From Pedobacter glucosidilyticus DSM 23534 (GTDB lineage: Bacteria > Bacteroidota > Bacteroidia > Sphingobacteriales > Sphingobacteriaceae), in the NCBI RefSeq assembly GCF_000425145.1, contig NZ_AULF01000006.1, positions 124,001-188,000 on the forward strand: 64,000 bases of DNA. The letters are read 5' to 3'. This document shows, piece by piece, positions 1-41,566 of the stretch. Every line of letters begins with the position of its first letter. Positions within the stretch are counted from its first letter, which is position 1. The notes beneath the pieces were generated by a model. It did not search any database. It had not been told where the DNA came from and saw only the letters and a list, made by a program, of their open reading frames with translations. The position numbers were made by a program, and so were the translations under genes.

Positions 1-2570
1 GTTCAGGTGCGGCAGGCGGAAATTCAAACATCGTGATTAGAGGGAACAGATCTATAACCAGCAACAGAGACGATATTGGCAGTAGAAATGGGCCTCTTAT
101 CATTGTAGATGGTTTCCAAGGAAATAGCATTGACGCCATCAATCCTAATGACATAGAATCTATTGAGGTATTAAAAGACGCATCATCTACAGCTATTTAT
201 GGCGCTCAAGGCGCAAATGGGGTTATTATTGTAACCACTAAAAAAGGAACTGCCGGAAAAGTTAAAGTTAATTACGATGCTTACTATGGTATCAATACTT
301 ATGATTTTCCATCGTCAAGAACTGGCGAAAGCTACATCAAATTAAGACGTGAAGCCGCAAGAACAATTGGTATTACCGATGACCAATTAGTTTTTGATGG
401 ACCAGGAGAATTAGACGCTGTACAAGCAGGACAGTTTGTAGACTGGATGGATTTAGTGATTAGAGATGGCTCACAACAAAGTCATAATGTTTCTATCACC
501 GGAGGTTCAGAGAAAACGGCTGTATTTGGTTCTGCCGGATACTTCAAGGAAGACGGTATGTTAAGAGGGAATGATTTTAACCGATACAACCTGAGGTTAA
601 ATTTAGACCAAACGGTTAACAACTGGATGAAAGTGGGCTTCAATACACAAATTGTTTATTCTGCACTTAATAACCGACAAAACCCATTGGGGCAGGCTAC
701 ACAAATTAGCCCTTTAGGTACTCCGTTTAATGAGGATGGTACCATCAGGTTATTTCCTTTACCAGACGGAACAACCATAAGCCCCCTAGCAGATGAGCGT
801 AGTGAGTTTATTGCTAGAAACAACACCCTTAGAAACAATATTGTAGCTAATGCTTATGTGTCTATATCGCCTTTAAAAGGATTAAATTTCAGGTCTAATA
901 TTGGCACTAATTTTAATAACTCCAGACAAGGTATTTTTAACGATAGAACATCCTTAGCGCAAAACGGACCACGTATTTCTGTGGCTTCTCAAAACACCGC
1001 CTTTAACCGTTACATTAACTGGGATAATATTTTAACTTATACAAAGAATATAAACAATCACAACTTCGTCTTAACAGGTATCACCAGTTATCAGCAGAGT
1101 GATCAGGATCGTTTATCTGCATCCGGACAAGGACAAATATTGGCATCTCAACTGTTTTACGACCTAAATTCTTCAAGCACCTCTATCACTAGAACCATTG
1201 GTTCTGCTTATGAAGGTTGGAGCAATATGGCTTATGCTGCAAGACTTAATTACAGTTTCAAAGGCAAATATTTGTTTACCGCATCAGGCAGGTATGATGG
1301 TGCTTCCAGATTATCGCCTGGAAATAAATGGGATTTCTTCCCATCAGCAGCTATCGGTTGGAATATTTTTGAAGAATCCTTTATGAAAAATATCCGCCAG
1401 ATAAACAACCTGAAACTTAGAGCTAGCTATGGCGTTAGCGGAAACTATAATATTGGTGTTTACAGCACACAAAATACGCTAAACTCGGCATCTAATATGA
1501 GCTTTGGCGATGTCCCGGTAAACTCATTTGTTTTTAGAGGTACAGTTGGAAATACAAATTTAGGTTGGGAAAAAACAGCTTCTTTAGATATTGGTTTAGA
1601 TTTTGGCTTCTTTAATAACCGCATTAGTGGTTCTGCCCAATGGTATGAAGCCAGTACATCAGATATTTTATTGAGTAGAACTTTACCACTATCTACCGGG
1701 ATGGTTGATGTTACCCAAAACATTGCCAGCACCAAAAACAGGGGTATAGAAATAGAAATTACAAGTAGAAATATACAAACTAAAAATTTCAGTTGGTCAT
1801 CTACACTTACTTATAATAGGAAAAGAGAAAAAATTACCGAGTTGATTGACGGTAGAGATATTTTCCCTAGCAGTGGTTTTGAAAGAAGCTCTTTATTGCT
1901 TGGTCGCCCTATTACTTCTTTCTATACGTATGATAAACTAGGTATTTGGCAGCTAAACGAAGCCGAAGAAGCTGCTAAATATAAAGTTGGAGGTTATACT
2001 TTCCAACCTGGGGATATCAAAGTAAGAGACCTTAACGGTGATTTCTTAATTAACGCTTCTGATTTAACTTATGTGGGTTCTACCGTACCAGATTGGATTG
2101 GTGGTTTACAAAATAATTTTACCTACAAAAACTTTGATTTAGGTGTTTTCTTAGTAGCTCGTTATGGCCAAACCATTGATGCCGAATTTTTAGGAAGATT
2201 TAACCCGGCTGGCACTGGAAACGGACCAGAAATTTTAGATTACTGGACACCAGAAAATCCAACTAACGATTTCCCTAGACCAAGAAGAGGCACCACACTA
2301 AGCTCTTATGCTGGTTATACCGGCTATCAAGCTTTAAATTTTGTTGATGGCTCTTTTTTCAAAGTTAAAACTGTTACCCTAGGTTATACGCTACCTAAAA
2401 TAAAATCAGGACCATCATTCTATAACCGGGTTAGGGTGTATGCTACAGCCAATAACTTACTTACTGTAGCTAAAAGCTCACTCATCAGAAACTACGACCC
2501 AGAGCGTGGTGGTGCAGAAAACAGCCCATTAAGCAGAACTTTTGTATTTGGATTAAATGTTGGTTTTTAA
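1..2570 (+). CDS. SusC/RagA-family TonB-linked outer membrane protein (5' end outside window)
   Basis: Outer membrane TonB-dependent transporter that moves oligosaccharides or other nutrients together with its SusD lipoprotein lid. The frame is open from base 3 to the stop at 2568-2570, so the signal peptide, carboxypeptidase-like domain and TonB box lie upstream of the window. Seen: the plug signature NIVIRGNRSI at the start, then VDGFQG, IESIEVLKDASSTAIYG and GANGVIIVTTKKG, which are hallmark plug motifs of the SusC family, followed by about 700 residues of beta-barrel sequence. It ends in an aromatic residue (NVGF), usual for outer membrane barrels. The susD gene follows immediately. The substrate cannot be read from the sequence, and no glycoside hydrolase follows the pair. 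Confidence 0.95.
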   Translation, partial: SGAAGGNSNIVIRGNRSITSNRDDIGSRNGPLIIVDGFQGNSIDAINPNDIESIEVLKDASSTAIYGAQGANGVIIVTTKKGTAGKVKVNYDAYYGINTYDFPSSRTGESYIKLRREAARTIGITDDQLVFDGPGELDAVQAGQFVDWMDLVIRDGSQQSHNVSITGGSEKTAVFGSAGYFKEDGMLRGNDFNRYNLRLNLDQTVNNWMKVGFNTQIVYSALNNRQNPLGQATQISPLGTPFNEDGTIRLFPLPDGTTISPLADERSEFIARNNTLRNNIVANAYVSISPLKGLNFRSNIGTNFNNSRQGIFNDRTSLAQNGPRISVASQNTAFNRYINWDNILTYTKNINNHNFVLTGITSYQQSDQDRLSASGQGQILASQLFYDLNSSSTSITRTIGSAYEGWSNMAYAARLNYSFKGKYLFTASGRYDGASRLSPGNKWDFFPSAAIGWNIFEESFMKNIRQINNLKLRASYGVSGNYNIGVYSTQNTLNSASNMSFGDVPVNSFVFRGTVGNTNLGWEKTASLDIGLDFGFFNNRISGSAQWYEASTSDILLSRTLPLSTGMVDVTQNIASTKNRGIEIEITSRNIQTKNFSWSSTLTYNRKREKITELIDGRDIFPSSGFERSSLLLGRPITSFYTYDKLGIWQLNEAEEAAKYKVGGYTFQPGDIKVRDLNGDFLINASDLTYVGSTVPDWIGGLQNNFTYKNFDLGVFLVARYGQTIDAEFLGRFNPAGTGNGPEILDYWTPENPTNDFPRPRRGTTLSSYAGYTGYQALNFVDGSFFKVKTVTLGYTLPKIKSGPSFYNRVRVYATANNLLTVAKSSLIRNYDPERGGAENSPLSRTFVFGLNVGF

Positions 2571-2587
2571 TGATAAACAGGAAAACA

Positions 2588-4333
2588 ATGAAAACTAAAA
2601 GATATTTAAAATTAAGCTGCTTAGCAGCAAGTATTACATTAACTATTTCTTGTAACAAACTGGATGAATATAATCCATCTGGCGCTACCGCAGACGCTGT
2701 ATGGTCTACCCCGGAAGGTTTTGTTACCAATGTTAATGCAGCCTATTCTGAGCAAAGAGCATGGTATGGTAAAGAAGACGGCATCTTTATGTCAGAATCT
2801 GGTACCGATTTATGGTTTAACCGAGATAAAAATACCTATGCCGGTCAATTAACTCAATATGCAGGTTTAACCCCTTTACAGGGAAATCCGGTTAGAGCTG
2901 CATGGAGAGATTTGTGGAAAGCCATTAATATATGTAATGCAGGTATTAACCGTATTAACGATGCTGGCTTTACCAACCAAGCAGAAAAAAACAGAAGAGA
3001 AGGAGAACTACGCTTTTTAAGAGCTTTTTACTATTGGCATATTGTAGAAACTTTCGGTGGCGTGATGTTACGTACAGAAGAAACCAAAACACCATTATTA
3101 ACAGCCCAAAGAAGCCCTGTGGAAGACTTTTATAACCTTATCATTTCTGATTTAGAGTTTGCAGCAGCCAATCTTCCTTTACAAAGCTTTTGGGGTAATG
3201 AATACAGCAGAGCAAGTAGAAAATCTGCCATGGGCTTTTTAGCAAGAGCTTTACTATCCAGAGCTTATTATTCAACTGGTACTGAGGCTCAAACCTATTT
3301 TACCAGAGCCAGAGACGCTGCAAAAGCCGTAATTGACAACAAAGCAGCTTTGGAAGTAGATCTTTGGGCAAATTATGCCGATATGTGGAACCCAGCCAAT
3401 AACAAACGCAATAAAGAAGCCCTTTATGTAGTCAGTAATTCTACCAACCAAGCTATTAATTATGATGCTAATGGAAACCGTTTATATCAAGTTTTTCAAG
3501 CTCGTTACAACGGCAAACCTGGTTTGGTTCAGAGTTTAGAGTATGGCTTTGAAAATAGCAGACGTTTAATGCCTACACTAAGCTTTTTAGATTATTTTAA
3601 TGAAAATATTGATAGTCGTTACGAGACTTCTTTCCAAGAGGTATGGATTGCAAATACCAATTTTACATGGACAGCATCTTTAGCCGCTACCCATCGTAAA
3701 GACCCTAGCGTTATTGGTAAAGTTATTAGAGCAGGTATTGATACTGCTTTATATATTACTAAAAAAGTTGTTCCTAATGATAGGTTAAAACCCTATATCG
3801 TTATTGATAGAGATAGTGTTTACAATACCAACGGAACTATTATTACTGGTGCAGATCATATCAATTTCAAGAAATTTAGAGATCCAGACCGTACCGCAGC
3901 TAATGCGCAGCCAGGTTTTAAGGATGTTATTGTGATGCGTTTAGCAGAGATGTATTTAATAGCTGCCGAGGCTGAGTGGAAATTAAATAACCCTAGTGCA
4001 GCAGCAGATTATATCAATGTTTTAAGAACCAGAGCTGCCCAAAAAACTCCGGTTAACCAAACAGCAGCTATGCAAGTAAGTGCAGCCAACATCAATGAAG
4101 ATTTTATATTGAAAGAAAGGGCAAGAGAATTGGCTGGCGAGCATCTTCGTTGGTTTGATTTAAAAAGAATGTTAGGCGCTAACAACGGACAAGCATTTGT
4201 TGATTTTATAAAAGCACAAAACCCTGATATTACGCAGGTACAACCTTTTCACCGCCTACGTCCAATTAGGCAGGAAGAGTTAAATGCTTTATTAAATGCA
4301 GAAGAATTCGGACAAAATCCGGGATATGATTAA
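2588..4333 (+). CDS. SusD/RagB-family nutrient-binding outer membrane lipoprotein
   Basis: Surface lipoprotein that binds ligand over the SusC barrel encoded just upstream. An in-frame ATG at 2570 overlaps the susC stop (TAATG), but the ATG at 2588 gives a normal lipoprotein signal: MKTKR, a hydrophobic run, then LTISC with the acylated Cys at residue 22. I therefore use 2588. The protein (581 residues from this start) shows the SusD helical core (EGELRFLRAFYYW), the C-terminal SusD_RagB region with VIVMRLAEMYLIAAEA, and the usual ELAGEHLRWFDLKRM near the end. Length is typical of the family. It is translationally linked to susC. The ligand is unknown. Confidence 0.95.
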   Translation: MKTKRYLKLSCLAASITLTISCNKLDEYNPSGATADAVWSTPEGFVTNVNAAYSEQRAWYGKEDGIFMSESGTDLWFNRDKNTYAGQLTQYAGLTPLQGNPVRAAWRDLWKAINICNAGINRINDAGFTNQAEKNRREGELRFLRAFYYWHIVETFGGVMLRTEETKTPLLTAQRSPVEDFYNLIISDLEFAAANLPLQSFWGNEYSRASRKSAMGFLARALLSRAYYSTGTEAQTYFTRARDAAKAVIDNKAALEVDLWANYADMWNPANNKRNKEALYVVSNSTNQAINYDANGNRLYQVFQARYNGKPGLVQSLEYGFENSRRLMPTLSFLDYFNENIDSRYETSFQEVWIANTNFTWTASLAATHRKDPSVIGKVIRAGIDTALYITKKVVPNDRLKPYIVIDRDSVYNTNGTIITGADHINFKKFRDPDRTAANAQPGFKDVIVMRLAEMYLIAAEAEWKLNNPSAAADYINVLRTRAAQKTPVNQTAAMQVSAANINEDFILKERARELAGEHLRWFDLKRMLGANNGQAFVDFIKAQNPDITQVQPFHRLRPIRQEELNALLNAEEFGQNPGYD

Positions 4334-30957: not shown

Positions 30958-32124
30958 TTACTGTACTTGCTCTACTCTGATTGAAGATATTCTATCATTA
31001 ACTGAAGAACTGAAGCAGCTTTGATCAGAGGTATAAGTTCCAATAAGAGTATCAAAATTGTTATTTGCGTAAACTCTAACCCTTAAACCTGAAGGAACTC
31101 TTATTGATGAAGCGTCATCGTTAACAAAACCTAAAGCCTGTAATTGTGATAAAGTATAATCACCCACACTTAAACTAGCACTCCAACCTGTATAATTACA
31201 TCCTTGGCGTACTGTTACTTTTGGTATTTCCCAATACCTAACATTAGACCAAGTTACAACAGAATTTGTTTTATTAGCATCTTCATCTTCTCTGCCATAA
31301 TTACCATATTTCATGTAATTAGTCCCATCACCATTTGTTGGCACTTGGTTTTCTTCACAAGAGTATTTTTCATCACCATTTACATATATGACAATACGTC
31401 CTGGTCTTGATGCAATTTCTTGAAAATGCACAACATTAATTGTTGTAGGTGTGTTTAAAATATTTGTAGCAATAGTACGGCTACCAACTTCGTTGGTTAC
31501 TCCATTAGGCACAACTCTCAATTGTCCTCCATTTACAGCTCCATCACCTCTAATTTGCAGTAGTGTAGCTCTTTGCGCACCACTTATGATGATACCTCCC
31601 CATATTTGGAAAACCGCATTATTGGCAAAAACATTATTGTTAATAGTAATAATACCTTCAAATTGACGAATATCACCAGTATCATAATTGTCTTGAATTC
31701 TTATTTCAGAACGGTTTCCTGGAGCTTTGTGCAGTGTAAAAGTATTTCTTTTATTATTACTAGCACTGTAGGTATAACTAGCTGCATTATTAGAGCCATA
31801 AGAGGTACCTGATGTACTTCCACTAACATTTATATACCAAGCATCACCATTATTCCAAGTTCGTGTTTCTACGCCATTACCCTCTTCTAAATGTACCCTT
31901 TGGTTAGCTTCAATGGTAGAAGTTATTTCTGACCAACCAGAACCATTTTCTGCTGCCGCAACAGTAATTGCATTTTTACTTCCTGCATTTGTATTTAGCT
32001 GCTCTACTGATGTTTCTTTGGTGTCTTTTTTACAAGCTACAACTAGGGCGGATGCTGCAATTATGGTTAATAAAGAAGCTTTTTTTACTGAAAAGCTTAA
32101 GATAGAATTTGAATTATTTTTCAT
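30958..32124 (-). CDS. Jelly-roll polysaccharide-lyase-like lipoprotein with beta/gamma-crystallin tail
   Basis: 388 residues. Lipoprotein signal with LVVACKKD (Cys about residue 31). The central domain (about 65-295) resembles alginate-lyase-type jelly-rolls: NRSEIRIQDN (compare RSEL-R), AVFQIWGG (compare QIH), and YMKYGNYG (compare YFKAG-Y). The catalytic His of PL7 enzymes appears replaced by Trp, so activity is uncertain. The C-terminal domain (about 305-388) is a beta/gamma-crystallin with two Ca-binding motifs, NDDASS (335-340) and NDRISS (376-381). Probably surface-exposed. Monocistronic, no SusCD beside it. Confidence 0.7.
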   Translation of the reverse strand: MKNNSNSILSFSVKKASLLTIIAASALVVACKKDTKETSVEQLNTNAGSKNAITVAAAENGSGWSEITSTIEANQRVHLEEGNGVETRTWNNGDAWYINVSGSTSGTSYGSNNAASYTYSASNNKRNTFTLHKAPGNRSEIRIQDNYDTGDIRQFEGIITINNNVFANNAVFQIWGGIIISGAQRATLLQIRGDGAVNGGQLRVVPNGVTNEVGSRTIATNILNTPTTINVVHFQEIASRPGRIVIYVNGDEKYSCEENQVPTNGDGTNYMKYGNYGREDEDANKTNSVVTWSNVRYWEIPKVTVRQGCNYTGWSASLSVGDYTLSQLQALGFVNDDASSIRVPSGLRVRVYANNNFDTLIGTYTSDQSCFSSSVNDRISSIRVEQVQ

Positions 32125-32492: not shown

Positions 32493-33518
32493 TCACCAGA
32501 ATCTAATTGGTTGTAATACTTTATATTTATTATTAAGTGTTAACCCTATCATGATTTCTTGAGTACCTTTTGAGACAGCATTTAATGGAGATGTTGTTAT
32601 ATCATAAGCATAGCTGATGTGTACCAAAGAAGATATATTAAAGCCTAACATACCAGAAAAAGCATCGCTCTCTCTATAGCTACCACCCAGCCACAGTTTA
32701 TCTTTAAAAGTAAATTTTACATTATAATCCAACGTAGGTTTTAATGGTTTTATCCATTTTAACATTACCGAAGGTATTAAGGTATAATTATCATCAAACC
32801 AAAATTTATAGCCAGCAGTTATGAAATAGTGAGGCACAGTGGTAGCCTCTTTATAAGTATTATCATCATTAAAAACAATATTTTGTGGCAATACTTGCTG
32901 TATAGATGCCCCAGCAAAATAGGTGGGTGCATATAACCAAACACCAACATTTACATCAGGCTTAAGCCTACTTACTTGGCCACTTGATAAAGCTTGGTCT
33001 GCTGCTTCGCCCGGCTTTAAATCATCAAAATTGATATTACTGTGAGATACCCCAGCACTAAGCCCTACAGCTAAATTTACATGTGCAGATAGACCTAAAT
33101 GATAGGCATAAGTAATATTAAAATTGCTTTGTTTTAATGCTCCTGCTTTATCAGTAGTCGCTACAAAACCCAAACCATGGTGCGGGGCCGAGGTAATATA
33201 TTCATATTGGTATTTGTATACATAGAAACTCTCACCTGTCATATCAAAAGAAGTAGGTGTTAAACGCTCATCTTTTTTACCTAAAGGGAAATGTATACTT
33301 AGATAGCTGGTTTCTGGGGCATCCTTTAAACCAATCCATTGCTTACGATTAGTAAATTTAATATCAATATAGTTTTCTATCCCTGTTAAAGCAGGGTTAA
33401 TGATATAATTATTGAGAATATATTGTGTGTACTGAGGTTTTTGCTGGGCATAGCTAAGCCCTATACTCAATTGTATGAATAACATAAAAATACAATATCT
33501 TCTTCCTTTCCTTTGCAC
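32493..33518 (-). CDS. Type IX secretion membrane protein, PorP/SprF family
   Basis: 341 residues with a signal peptide (ends about residue 24, GLSYAQQ). The family start QKPQYTQYILNNYIINPALTG is diagnostic, followed by a beta-barrel pattern with GLGFVATTDKAG, FAGASIQQVLPQ and a terminal aromatic FW. PorP/SprF proteins sit in the outer membrane and are needed to secrete or attach partner proteins carrying type B sorting domains. The upstream gene encodes exactly such a protein, and the coding regions overlap by one base, so the pair is an operon. Confidence 0.95.
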   Translation of the reverse strand: MQRKGRRYCIFMLFIQLSIGLSYAQQKPQYTQYILNNYIINPALTGIENYIDIKFTNRKQWIGLKDAPETSYLSIHFPLGKKDERLTPTSFDMTGESFYVYKYQYEYITSAPHHGLGFVATTDKAGALKQSNFNITYAYHLGLSAHVNLAVGLSAGVSHSNINFDDLKPGEAADQALSSGQVSRLKPDVNVGVWLYAPTYFAGASIQQVLPQNIVFNDDNTYKEATTVPHYFITAGYKFWFDDNYTLIPSVMLKWIKPLKPTLDYNVKFTFKDKLWLGGSYRESDAFSGMLGFNISSLVHISYAYDITTSPLNAVSKGTQEIMIGLTLNNKYKVLQPIRFW

Positions 33519-36500
33519 TACCTTACAATCATAACCGACCCAGAATATTTTAAATTTCGTTCTTCAATGGTTATGATGTAATAATAAGCGCCAACTGGTA
33601 GATCTTCCCCATTAAATCTACCATCCCAAGCTTGGTTGTAGTTATCACTTTGATAGACAACTTTTCCGTATCTATTGTAAACATTTACATTTACAGATGG
33701 ATAGCTGTCTAAGTATTTAATCTCCCATCTATCGTTTGTACCATCCCCATTAGGGGTAAAAACATTTGGGATTTCAGGCTTTTGCAAAACTTTAACAAAT
33801 ACATCATCTGTAGCAACACATCCTGTAGCACTATTAACCGTTAAGGTGTAAGTTATATCATCTGTAGGATTAGCAACTGGGTTTAATACTGAAGGATTAC
33901 TAAGACCTGTAGCCGGAGACCAGCTATAAGTTAAACCTTCTCCAGAAGCAACAGCATTTAAGATTGCATTACCGCCAATTAATATTGTTTGATTTTCGCC
34001 TGCGCTGATGATAGGCGTCGGATTAACTTTTATGCTTTGGCTTAAAACCTCTATACAACCATTAACCCCTGTAAAAGTATAAGTAATCTGATGTTCGCCA
34101 GGACCAGCCGATGATGGCGAGAACATTCCGTCAGCAGTAACGCCTCTTCCTGTAAAAGTTGCGCTACCTGTGAAACCACTAAGCTCTCTTGCTTGCGTAA
34201 TCCTAAAATTAGCTTGCTCTTGACAAACTTCTGGTATTGGTGTAAAAGAAATTTGAGGAACCGCTTTAAGTGTAATACTCATAATTTTCTCTGAAACACA
34301 AGTTTCAGAATAGACTTTGAGCTTTGCGGTTATAATTTTTGTAAGCGGGCTATGAAAAAGCGGGAAGATAAAACTATACTCGGCACCAGAAACCGGAGCA
34401 TTTACCACCTGATAATAATTTGGATTACTGGATCCTGACGTTTCATTAAAAAACCATTCTATTTTAGTAATGCTACCAAAACTTATGGTTGATAAATCTT
34501 TAAGTATAACAGGTTGGTTACTGCATAAATTATGAACGTTTAACACTTCAAAATTCACCTCAGGTATGGCTGCTATCACATTAAAATTTAATGTGTCTGA
34601 TTTACTACAACCATTAAAAGTTGCTGTTAATATCACTTCATAATTACCTGCTGCTGTATATGGGTGAATAGGATTTTTTTGTGTGGATGTGTTTCCATCT
34701 CCAAAATTCCACACGTAAGTTATCGCCGGATCATCTACTCCGTTTATGGTGGTATTATTGGTAAAAGTAGCTTTGCCTTGAGGTAAGCAAGTAGAAGGAA
34801 GTGTAAAATTTACTTGAGGAACCGCTTTAAGCGTGATGATTTTATCTAAATAACTAGAGCAAGAAATACCAGAATAAACTACCATTCTTATTTTAACTTG
34901 CTTTGTAAGAGGAGTATGAAAAATAGGATAATTAAAACGGTATTGTCTTTTTAAAGAGGTATTTCTTAGTTCCGGAGACTCATCAACTAATTTTAATGCT
35001 GGGTTTTGATCATAATCCCAATACCACTCTATTTTTGTTATTTCGCCAAAATCTACTGAAGCTAAATCTTCAATAATTACTTCTTGGTTAATACATAAGT
35101 TATTTTCATTTAAGACATTAAATCTGGCTAGGGGTGTACTCCCATTTACTATAAAATCCTTTTCCAAAACCGTTTGGCAGCCCGTAATTGTAGAAGTAGC
35201 CGTTAATTTTACCCGATAAACACCTTGCGCACTGTAGTTATGTACGCCATCTTTTTGTATTGATGTATTTAAAGAGCCCGAGGTAGGGTCGCCAAAATCC
35301 CAAACGTAAGACATGTTACTATTATCAGCAATGGTACTTGTGTTGATAAATGTTGCTATAGCATCATTCAAACAAAAATCAGGTGTTATAAAATCGGTAA
35401 TGGGTAAAGGGTTTATCTTGATAACTTTACTGATGGCTTTTGTACAAGCGTTATTTGTAGTTATAGTAAGCGTTACTGTAAAATCTCCTACAGTAGTAAA
35501 CACGTGTTTGGGGTTTTGTAAAGTGGAGGTATTACCGTCGCCAAAATTCCACGACCATGAAGTTATGGTTTGCTCTGTTGCTGTAGAAATATCAGAAAAC
35601 TGAATTTCTTTATTTACACATGCTGTACTAGAAAAATTAAAATCGGGATTAGGAAATGGGTTGATGCTGATGGTATCTTTAAAAACTTCCGACCAACAAC
35701 CTTTATCAACAGCTACAGATAAGGATACTATCTTATCTCCTGGCGTAGCATAAGCATGATTTGGATTTTGTAAGGTAGAAATATTACCATCACCAAAATC
35801 CCAAAGCCATTTATTTACAGTATTTCCTCTGCCATCAGTTATAGGTGTAAAATCAATTGTTGATTCTGGACAAAGTTTATTGTTGTAAATAAAGGATGCC
35901 ATAGGAGGGTTAAAAACTTCAAACTCGGTTGCTATTTCCTCCTCTGCACTACAGCTAGCTGGCGCAGGGTTTAATACCGTAGCTTTTAAATTATACATAC
36001 CACTAGTAGTAATTTCACTAGCGTTTATTTGATAATCATAGAAATAACTGGTAATGCCGTTTACTGTTTCAATTTGCGATGGTGTAACTGAGAATATAGT
36101 ATCTCTTTTTAAGCCATTCTTAAAATCCCAAATAATTTTATTGGTTTGATAGGGGAGTTTAAGTTGAACTTGATAATCTTCCCCGATACATAAATTAGAT
36201 GTTGCATTTGAACTTCCCTTAGGAAAAAAGGAAATATTGGCGTTTAAATTTTTTAAATCAGAGCCAGCTAGATAAGCATAAGATTCTATATTTCCATAAC
36301 CATAGGCTATAGCTACAAAACCTCCACTACAAACTATACGGTGGGCAGGGTTTGTAGCAGATGAACTTGTAACGTCTACGGTGATATAACTATACTCATT
36401 ATCAATAGTTACAAAACTGCCATTAGGTATAGCATTATCTACCCTTAAACTTGGTACATCTACAGTTTTAAGAATGATATTTATATAATGGGCTATAATA

Positions 36501-37648
36501 TTTGTTGGGGCAACCACTGGTACGCTTACTGCCGAGTATAAGGTAATATCAGATAGCGTTTGCTCAACCGGATTTAAAATTGTCATTTCTGGATCTCCTG
36601 GGAACCTTACTGTACCGGTATTATTAGGGTTACAAGACTGTGAGACTTGTAATTGCGCCACACTAATAGGTTTAGAACCTTTAATTACAAAAGCTGTACT
36701 ACCGTAAAAGGTTATAATACTACCTTTTGCATACGGGTTTTGTAATTGGATATTACCCACTTGGGTGGTCGAACCATTTACGGAAACCTCAGTATTATCC
36801 TCATTTACAAAAATTCTAATGATATCTTGCGCACCATTTTGAGCATTATAAAATGGTGCAGTTACATAATTTTTACCCCAAGCTGATATAGGGAAAAGTT
36901 GCTGATAGAGATTATCTTGCGTAGTACCTGCATTATTTGTACAGAAGCCGTTTTGCGTACTTCCAGAAAAAGCTGCCACAGGCTTACAATTACCAATTGT
37001 TTTTATCCTAACACCAGTTACATCCGTTGTTGATTGGTATTGGTAAATATCACCTTTATCTAACCTTACTTGAAATGGCGTTGTTCCAACTCTGTTGCTA
37101 TTATAAACTGTAGCAACTGGTGAGATTTCTATTTGTGTGCTATCTTCTACACCAACCAAAGTAAACTGCGAAACTCTAAAATTGTTATTGCTAACAGGTA
37201 CTTGGTCATAAGCCATAGCAATATATTCATTACCTAAAGCTTTGGTGGGTAAAACCAATGTTGCAGCAGACCTAGCACTTCTAGAAATATGCGAATATAA
37301 AACAATAGGAACATCAGATGTTACATGAATCCCTCGGTCTTGATACACAATATCAGAACCTCCAACATAGGTATTATTATAAATATTTGGGTCTATATAA
37401 ACCGGAACGGCTTGATTAGCCAAAACCGTTACCGGAGGCAAGTTAACTCCTCCAGCATTTATATTTACTATTGCTTTGTTCTGCGAGGTAATAAAAAGTG
37501 TTAATCTAGAGCCTAATCCATCTATATGCCCTGCATAAGCTACCCAAAAATCTATCCCTCTATTAGATGAATTTTGAGCCATAGCATTTCCTGTAACAAT
37601 AAAAAACAATACACTGTATAAATACAATACGCGTTTAAAATGGTTCAT
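33518..37648 (-). CDS. Giant PKD-repeat surface protein with T9SS type B sorting domain
   Basis: 1376 residues. Signal peptide (about 1-24, GNAMAQ). N-terminal ~440 residues match an IgGFc-binding-like domain (GIDFWVAYAGH, PVAAFSGSTQNGFC). Then several PKD domains (about 575-1010) with WDFGDGN or WNFGDGNTST cores, two copies of an unusual unit starting LC-x-NQ-x-VI-x-DL (about 835 and 1035), and a C-terminal CHU_C domain (IPNVFTPNGDGTNDRWEI, then GKVVYQS and VGAYYYIITI, TIGR04131), the type B signal. Likely exported by T9SS with the downstream PorP/SprF and displayed as an adhesin, like SprB-type proteins. Confidence 0.93.
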   Translation of the reverse strand: MNHFKRVLYLYSVLFFIVTGNAMAQNSSNRGIDFWVAYAGHIDGLGSRLTLFITSQNKAIVNINAGGVNLPPVTVLANQAVPVYIDPNIYNNTYVGGSDIVYQDRGIHVTSDVPIVLYSHISRSARSAATLVLPTKALGNEYIAMAYDQVPVSNNNFRVSQFTLVGVEDSTQIEISPVATVYNSNRVGTTPFQVRLDKGDIYQYQSTTDVTGVRIKTIGNCKPVAAFSGSTQNGFCTNNAGTTQDNLYQQLFPISAWGKNYVTAPFYNAQNGAQDIIRIFVNEDNTEVSVNGSTTQVGNIQLQNPYAKGSIITFYGSTAFVIKGSKPISVAQLQVSQSCNPNNTGTVRFPGDPEMTILNPVEQTLSDITLYSAVSVPVVAPTNIIAHYINIILKTVDVPSLRVDNAIPNGSFVTIDNEYSYITVDVTSSSATNPAHRIVCSGGFVAIAYGYGNIESYAYLAGSDLKNLNANISFFPKGSSNATSNLCIGEDYQVQLKLPYQTNKIIWDFKNGLKRDTIFSVTPSQIETVNGITSYFYDYQINASEITTSGMYNLKATVLNPAPASCSAEEEIATEFEVFNPPMASFIYNNKLCPESTIDFTPITDGRGNTVNKWLWDFGDGNISTLQNPNHAYATPGDKIVSLSVAVDKGCWSEVFKDTISINPFPNPDFNFSSTACVNKEIQFSDISTATEQTITSWSWNFGDGNTSTLQNPKHVFTTVGDFTVTLTITTNNACTKAISKVIKINPLPITDFITPDFCLNDAIATFINTSTIADNSNMSYVWDFGDPTSGSLNTSIQKDGVHNYSAQGVYRVKLTATSTITGCQTVLEKDFIVNGSTPLARFNVLNENNLCINQEVIIEDLASVDFGEITKIEWYWDYDQNPALKLVDESPELRNTSLKRQYRFNYPIFHTPLTKQVKIRMVVYSGISCSSYLDKIITLKAVPQVNFTLPSTCLPQGKATFTNNTTINGVDDPAITYVWNFGDGNTSTQKNPIHPYTAAGNYEVILTATFNGCSKSDTLNFNVIAAIPEVNFEVLNVHNLCSNQPVILKDLSTISFGSITKIEWFFNETSGSSNPNYYQVVNAPVSGAEYSFIFPLFHSPLTKIITAKLKVYSETCVSEKIMSITLKAVPQISFTPIPEVCQEQANFRITQARELSGFTGSATFTGRGVTADGMFSPSSAGPGEHQITYTFTGVNGCIEVLSQSIKVNPTPIISAGENQTILIGGNAILNAVASGEGLTYSWSPATGLSNPSVLNPVANPTDDITYTLTVNSATGCVATDDVFVKVLQKPEIPNVFTPNGDGTNDRWEIKYLDSYPSVNVNVYNRYGKVVYQSDNYNQAWDGRFNGEDLPVGAYYYIITIEERNLKYSGSVMIVR

Positions 37649-40777: not shown

Positions 40778-41566
40778 TTAGTCTAACAACAACCAAGTTG
40801 TTAACTCTTCTGCAGCTTTGTTATTTTCAAAAACGATGGTATTTCCTTTGTAAGTGTTTAGGATATCGTTATCAATATACTCGTTATAAATCCAAGGGTC
40901 GCCGGCAGCAAATACTTTACCTTTTCCGTATCTGGCAGTTGCCATAATAACATCGCCTTTATCGGTAATTAAAGCTTTTGCATTTTTGCTTACGCTGATG
41001 GTTGATATTCCTTTAAGGAATAAATTCTTAGCTGTTTTAAAAATTTCATTACCTGCTTCTGGCACAATTAAGCCTACAGATAAATCTTTCTCCACCGCAT
41101 TTCTTATTTTATCATTAAAATTTATACCAAATACATTGGCTAGTTTATTAAAATGTGGAAGTTCGCAATTGACAGAGTCATTAGCTAATAAAACCAAAGT
41201 ACCGCCAGCTTTAACCCATTTTTTTATTGCTTTTATGGCATCTTTATCAACAAAATTAGGTTTTGCTGTTTCCTTTTTAGTATCAGGATCTGTAATGATA
41301 TAAACATCAGTACCAGCTAAATTTTCTTTAGTGGGTGCAACAGTTAAGCTTTTAAGAGCAGCGCCTTGTTGTTTAAACATTTCTCCCCATTTAGAGTAGC
41401 CTGCCATCGCTTTATCTTCCCAGGTGTAATGAAAACGATTGGTTTTACCATCTTTGGTTTGGTATTCATTATTGTAGAAATAATCTAAAGTAACGGTTTT
41501 CTTGTCTTGGGCGGTAACGGTAATCGCTAAAAAAACAAATAAGCAGGCTAAAATGATTTTATTCAT
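40778..41566 (-). CDS. Exported DUF4350-domain protein
   Basis: 262 residues with a signal peptide (MNKIILACLFVFLAITVTAQ). Rest: a Rossmann-like glutamine-amidotransferase-type fold without the catalytic Cys: GTDVYIITDPDTKKETA, AIKKWVKAGGTLVLLANDS, and GKVFAAGDPWIYNEYIDN. The same fold occurs as a domain in, or next to, unsaturated glucuronyl/rhamnogalacturonyl hydrolases in Bacteroidota, which suggests a sugar-related role. Here it stands alone beside gldH (12-base gap). No enzyme activity is claimed. Confidence 0.8.
   Translation of the reverse strand: MNKIILACLFVFLAITVTAQDKKTVTLDYFYNNEYQTKDGKTNRFHYTWEDKAMAGYSKWGEMFKQQGAALKSLTVAPTKENLAGTDVYIITDPDTKKETAKPNFVDKDAIKAIKKWVKAGGTLVLLANDSVNCELPHFNKLANVFGINFNDKIRNAVEKDLSVGLIVPEAGNEIFKTAKNLFLKGISTISVSKNAKALITDKGDVIMATARYGKGKVFAAGDPWIYNEYIDNDILNTYKGNTIVFENNKAAEELTTWLLLD

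Follow-up and report, generated by a model that had tools for sequence, protein, structure and literature searches.

The gene at positions 30958 to 32124 (minus strand) of the window, by which we mean the whole 64,000-nucleotide stretch of Pedobacter glucosidilyticus DNA analysed here, encodes a 388-residue lipoprotein-like protein that joins a PL7-type jelly roll to a beta/gamma-crystallin domain and carries a tryptophan in the slot of the PL7 catalytic histidine. The protein looks like a member of a modified family of sugar-cutting enzymes rather than the product of one broken gene, because the exchange of this His for Trp or Phe is family-wide and the other catalytic residues are intact. 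Likeness to PL7 and possession of an accessory module are ordinary, and what is unusual is an aromatic residue fixed at a catalytic position with all the other residues kept.

Domain organization and genomic setting

The reading frame and its translation come from the ORF list, with an ATG start, and all parts of the protein are given below by their window coordinates on the minus strand. Residues 1–31 (32032–32124) form an N-terminal signal with a lipobox-like VVAC at 28–31, in which Cys31 is the predicted lipidation site; applying the lipobox rule, we take this segment to be a lipoprotein signal. A linker leads to the PL7-like jelly roll (residues about 61–299, 31228–31944), placed by PF08787, hhalign, an AF2 model and PDB matches, and the crystallin domain follows at residues 303–387 (30964–31218). 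The closest named match, in P. glucosidilyticus UBA7667, is 98% identical over the protein. The gene occupies the same place in UBA7667 and in P. puniceum, where blastn alignments are collinear over 10.9 and 13.2 kb. The immediate neighbourhood also aligns in two further relatives, one of which is possibly P. puniceum again (four loci with aligned surroundings: L001, L002, L017 and L018). Against two relatives dN/dS is about 0.13 (0.097/0.756) and 0.27 (0.192/0.723), and the jelly-roll part gives 0.088/0.816 and 0.247/1.017 in the same comparisons; the gene is under strong purifying selection.

Inspected by eye, the neighbours of the gene are of efflux, MFS and PorP/SprF-like types, with no recognised polysaccharide-utilisation locus and no alginate context among them. 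The adjoining segment at 32493–37648 (minus strand) encodes a PorP/SprF-like protein and a large protein of PKD repeats whose C terminus is a gliding-type tail, both assigned by eye. At the start of the window (33–4333, plus strand) lies a SusC-like/SusD-like pair, also assigned by eye, beside which no carbohydrate-active gene was recognised.

Relationship of the jelly roll to PL7

The initial annotation had proposed a profile search and a structure prediction, and both point to PL7. Pfam PF08787 (Alginate_lyase2) matches the protein at E=1.6e-4 and 22 bits and the jelly-roll domain alone at E=4e-5, the 22–24 bits over both searches falling below the curated cut-off of 29.7 bits. The best of 12 family members reached 1.9e-7, and a Chitinophaga member with QVF in the His motif, at 60.8 bits, lies over the cut-off; QVF members presumably resemble plant 'citrate-binding proteins'. 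A profile of the 12 members aligned in hhalign with 27 Bacteroidota PL7 domains at E=1.7e-6 in local and 2.2e-8 in global mode, and the decoys, one reversed and 20 column-shuffled PL7 alignments run in local mode, all gave E values of at least 0.11. The alignment pairs three PL7 motifs in order, RSEIR with SRSELR, QIW with QIH and YMKYGNY with YFKAGNY. RSEIR (residues 138–142, 31699–31713) corresponds to RXEXR, and YMKYGNY (residues 270–276, 31297–31317) to YXKXGXY with Tyr276 in the place of the PL7 acid/base Tyr, as expected from the RSEIR and YMKYGNYG motifs picked out in the initial annotation. The longer YXKAGXYXQ signature is altered, since YMKYGNYGR keeps Tyr, Lys, Gly and Tyr and has Tyr for Ala and Arg for Gln. 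The remaining motif, QXH, reads QIW (residues 173–175, 31600–31608), with Trp175 in the His slot; because hhalign pairs this segment with PL7 QIH, the earlier statement that QIH reads QIW was right, and an aromatic residue is moreover fixed here family-wide.

An AF2 model of the jelly roll built from 10 sequences (pLDDT 72, pTM 0.78; weak at model residues 14–42 and 122–129) was used for structural comparison, and a single-sequence AF2 prediction of the full protein (pLDDT 37.8) was left out. The predicted fold is PL7-like, with PL7 lyases as its best matches at Z 16–17. The model superposes on 7ncz (PsPL7A) with Z 16.9 and rmsd 3.1 over 189 aligned residues, on 7nde (the Trichoderma glucuronan lyase TpPL7A) with Z 16.4 over 195 residues, and on 2zzj (Trichoderma reesei glucuronan lyase) and 6d3u with Z 15.5 each, differences of Z below 1 being ties. 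Each of the top 21 structural matches is an alginate or glucuronan lyase belonging to the PL7 set, and Foldseek matches the model to 1vav at E 3.7e-8. Jelly-roll folds of PL20, PL28, PL18, PL13 and PL36 gave Z 13–15.5, a comparison of fold only. A phmmer search with the window protein found no jelly-roll relative of known structure below E 0.1, hmmsearch with alignments A1 and A3 gave weak PL7 matches at most (best E 0.037 and 0.024), and one search placed 7nde at rank 16 (E 0.69). No family for the protein was found in NCBIfam, and no relatives in the viral contigs and plasmids searched; matches in BFVD were dropped as generic jelly rolls.

An aromatic residue in the catalytic His slot

The family sample comprises 39 proteins and yields 36 distinct domains, which include close relatives and do not represent 36 independent events. 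The His slot of QXH holds Phe in 23 of them, Trp in 13 and His in none. Gln173, His233 (31426–31428), Tyr270, Lys272, Gly274 and Tyr276 are invariant (36/36), and Arg138 and Glu140 are present in all 33 rows that keep their segment; the other three rows were cut there by windowing, and their group reads RSEMK in an earlier alignment. Taken together, positions R138, E140, Q173, 175, K272 and Y276 read REQFKY in 23 family domains and REQWKY in 10, the three cut rows aside. The same six sites read REQHKY in 25 of the 27 Bacteroidota PL7s and KDQGTN in two, L064 and L065, where His is lost together with Arg, Glu, Lys and Tyr; these are sister rows in the tree and count as one event. Such joint loss is what an inactivated site should show. 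We regard the replacement of His alone, always by an aromatic residue and with the other catalytic residues kept, as the best argument that the site still works. In a tree of the 36 family and 27 PL7 domains a 100/100 branch separates all family members from PL7, with the caveat, raised by a warning of the tool, that the grouping of two long-branched sets within the family may be an artefact.

Strand alternation suggests where the substituted residue lies. Gln173 and position 175 share one parity, opposite to the always-hydrophobic position 174, and Trp175 therefore most likely sits in the cleft at the place of the PL7 His.

Distribution and paralogues

The source genome (4.0 Mb in 62 contigs) holds seven family members and is the sole carrier among the 395 genomes of the phylum sample. 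Of 18 genomes in the genus 4 have members, and so do 3 of 147 in a sample of Chitinophagaceae, its centre included. All 7 named Chitinophaga genomes carry members as well, but this set had been selected on the basis of a match. Two of the seven paralogues, one with QLF (C3:86767-87468) and one with QVW (C3:110416-110916), lie within a pectin-utilisation island at 66–130 kb of contig C3 (loci L111, L049, L109, L050 and L110). The island encodes a pectinesterase, a Pel9A-like helix protein, GH43, GH28 and an adjoining GH88-fold hydrolase, GH2, three GH95, GH31 and several GH29, together with tagaturonate reductase, altronate dehydratase, KDPG aldolase, galactonate dehydratase, DgoK and SusC/SusD; a GH88 (E 1.6e-8) stands five genes before the QVW member. 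Enzymes of GH88 and GH105 remove the unsaturated uronate left by lyases, and the GH88-fold genes in the island of the QLF and QVW paralogues thus support catalysis by these two proteins. By eye, the Chitinophaga family loci L005 and L007 have no such pectin island.

Two further paralogues lie side by side on contig C19 and one on C2. Several paralogues are probably exported, because those of 850 and 716 residues end in weak Por_Secre_tail matches. FN3 modules occur in two paralogues, one of which also has a ricin-B-type lectin module. Within the window, a 262-residue secreted protein (40778–41566, minus strand) looks by eye like the C-terminal part, with DUF4350, of the GH88-fold protein at L049:2547-4478, and appears to be the tail domain of an enzyme encoded on its own.

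The crystallin domain

The C-terminal domain matches PDB 3hzb, which we take to be flavollin, at phmmer E=4.8e-19, clostrillins at about 1e-15 and protein S at 2e-12; 3hzb apart, ten bacterial crystallin chains fall below E 1e-6. Both N/D-N/D-x-x-S/T-S motifs of the Ca type are complete, NDDASS at residues 335–340 (31105–31122) and NDRISS at 376–381 (30982–30999), in agreement with the two complete N/D-N/D-x-x-S-S motifs of the initial annotation. Known bacterial Ca-type crystallins (3hzb, clostrillin 3snz, protein S 1prr) differ from the window protein, whose one crystallin unit forms the C-terminal part of a lyase-like lipoprotein.

Among 151 sampled genomes of the bacterial family, a crystallin-type match was the sole match in 11 genomes outside the genus. 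Pfam assigned eight of the proteins concerned as follows: a PF14099 polysaccharide lyase (L019), GH18 (L022), an EndoS-type barrel (L033), a weak M12-type peptidase (L025), LGFP repeats (L029), at most a weak crystallin match (L020), and no domain in L021 and L027; a crystallin-GH76 reading of L020 and L021 was dropped, as Pfam gives no such match. In L019, L022, L025, L029 and L033 the crystallin domain is attached C- or N-terminally to unrelated extracellular proteins of the same bacterial family. Judging from these architectures, crystallin is a mobile accessory shared by extracellular proteins in this bacterial family, and its presence on unrelated partners fits stabilisation or binding rather than catalysis.

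Discussion

We consider the chances about even that the window protein is a surface-tethered uronate-polysaccharide lyase that lacks the PL7 His, uses Tyr276 as acid/base and carries the crystallin as a Ca-stabilised accessory. It would be an extracellular enzyme tethered to the outer membrane, from a family of polysaccharide lyases related to PL7 in which the QxH His has become aromatic. Arg138 and Gln173 would neutralise the uronate carboxylate at subsite +1, Tyr276 would abstract H5 and protonate O4 in a syn beta-elimination, as for beta-D-uronates, and Trp175, lining the cleft, would provide stacking or desolvation and not act as a base. With Arg, Gln and Tyr kept and His missing, syn elimination of beta-D-uronates could still proceed, and guluronate-type anti elimination should be lost because the His base is absent. 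The crystallin module would bind two Ca2+ and stabilise the protein or aid its binding. Alginate would be a less probable substrate than a uronate polymer associated with glucuronate or pectin. Pectin GalA requires anti elimination, and since the pectin context of two paralogues leads to GalA-type substrates, substrate and chemistry do not yet agree. Also counting against a lyase are the setting of the window gene outside any recognised polysaccharide locus, the lack of an alginate context, the altered YXKAGXYXQ and the sub-cut-off PF08787 score.

The role of the PL7 His is itself a matter on which authors differ, with His/Tyr and Tyr-only schemes. The available part of a PL7 review assigns His as base and Tyr as acid, and gives Tyr both roles in PL14 and PL18 (PMC8618178), and QM/MM work quoted in the available part of a second paper has a deprotonated Tyr as base and acid in PL7 syn elimination (PMC13169297). 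AlyV H141N and PyAly H125A served as inactive or trapping mutants, according to the accessible text of PMC9345997, which counts against an active QIW enzyme. PyAly was considered as a natural His-less PL7, as 7w13 reads QVA, and was dropped because that structure is the H125A mutant (same source and part). A bolder reading of the family as a whole, at somewhat less than even probability, is one of PL7-fold lyases in which Tyr alone would serve as base and acid and Trp or Phe would be obligatory at the His slot. Uronate polymers of plant or EPS type would have taken the place of alginate as substrates, and one branch would be surface-anchored with a calcium crystallin.

The initial annotation had left the choice between a lyase with a changed active site and a non-catalytic glycan binder; the former is the better half of that interpretation, and the latter is not favoured, given that the other PL7 catalytic-site residues are invariant and that a PL7 Tyr can be base and acid, on the available part of PMC13169297. 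The binder would be a Ca-stabilised surface lipoprotein, a PL7-derived lectin in which Trp would be a platform for stacking and the crystallin a further module for binding or stability. In favour of this, sugar-binding clefts commonly contain aromatic side chains, His is lost in every family member, the window gene has a lipoprotein-like anchor and no lyase operon, and two paralogues carry FN3 modules, one with the ricin-B-type lectin module as well. The use of PL7 His mutants as inactive forms (PMC9345997, accessible text) agrees with this. However, such a protein would not need the Tyr acid/base, yet Arg, Glu, Lys, Tyr and Gln are all invariant, and the degenerate PL7s of the same sample lose Arg, Glu, Lys and Tyr together. 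The lectin is a serious rival all the same, if less probable than the lyase.

Whether the true catalytic His lies elsewhere, the outcome that the initial annotation had named as fatal to its proposal, turns on His233. This residue, in the motif NV[IV]H, is present in 36/36 family domains and 0/27 PL7s and might have taken over the base role when the QxH His was lost. The corresponding PL7 column is hydrophobic (V15 A5 I4 Y3), as are columns 229 and 231, and 230, 232 and 234 are mostly polar, so that His233 should face the sandwich core, opposite to 230, rather than the cleft, whose parity Q173 and W175 share. An invariant His was thus found, but it is probably core-facing and more likely structural than a replacement base, and a lyase with a relocated histidine is very unlikely. 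Least probable of all is an ordinary PL7 alginate lyase with a merely variable His slot, which would account for the fold and three motif positions but not for the absence of His from all 36 domains, the 100/100 branch between family and PL7, or a PF08787 score below the Pfam cut-off.

Returning to the proposed lyase, PL7 alginate lyases (PF08787; PsPL7A 7ncz, PA1167 1vav, A1-II' 2cws) share its beta-jelly roll, RXEXR, the Gln of QXH and the Lys and Tyr of YXKXGXY at Z 15–17, whereas the window protein has Trp/Phe for the QXH His, the invariant His233, an altered YXKAGXYXQ and a fused crystallin, with about 8–17% identity in structural alignments. The glucuronan lyase 2zzj and the ulvan lyase 6d3u, which we take to be PL20 and PL28, share the fold at 12–13% identity and are likened by fold, not by catalytic site. 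The fungal glucuronan lyases of PL7 subfamily 4 (TpPL7A, 7nde) have the same fold at 13% identity, and beta-glucuronan would suit syn elimination; this subfamily is said to hold glucuronan lyases only (PMC7911691, available part). Among proteins of related genomes, L019 likewise has a C-terminal crystallin on an extracellular enzyme, but one of PF14099 type and not of this family, and the other crystallin-tailed proteins are GH18, EndoS-type or weakly M12-type.

A natural family with a fixed aromatic residue and all else kept would directly test whether the PL7 His is the true base or a helper, the point on which the His/Tyr and Tyr-only schemes part (PMC8618178 and PMC13169297, available parts). 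The family may also hold a new substrate specificity, and the crystallin modules are seen here to be accessories that extracellular proteins of this bacterial family have in common. Literature searches, which covered titles and the start of abstracts, returned neither a crystallin-lyase fusion nor an aromatic QXH slot, though such a description may still exist. Separately, L064 and L065, from Bacteroidota genomes, are likely non-catalytic PL7 paralogues, and the PL7 domain of L064 is close to the alginate lyase 5y33 (E 1.4e-50).
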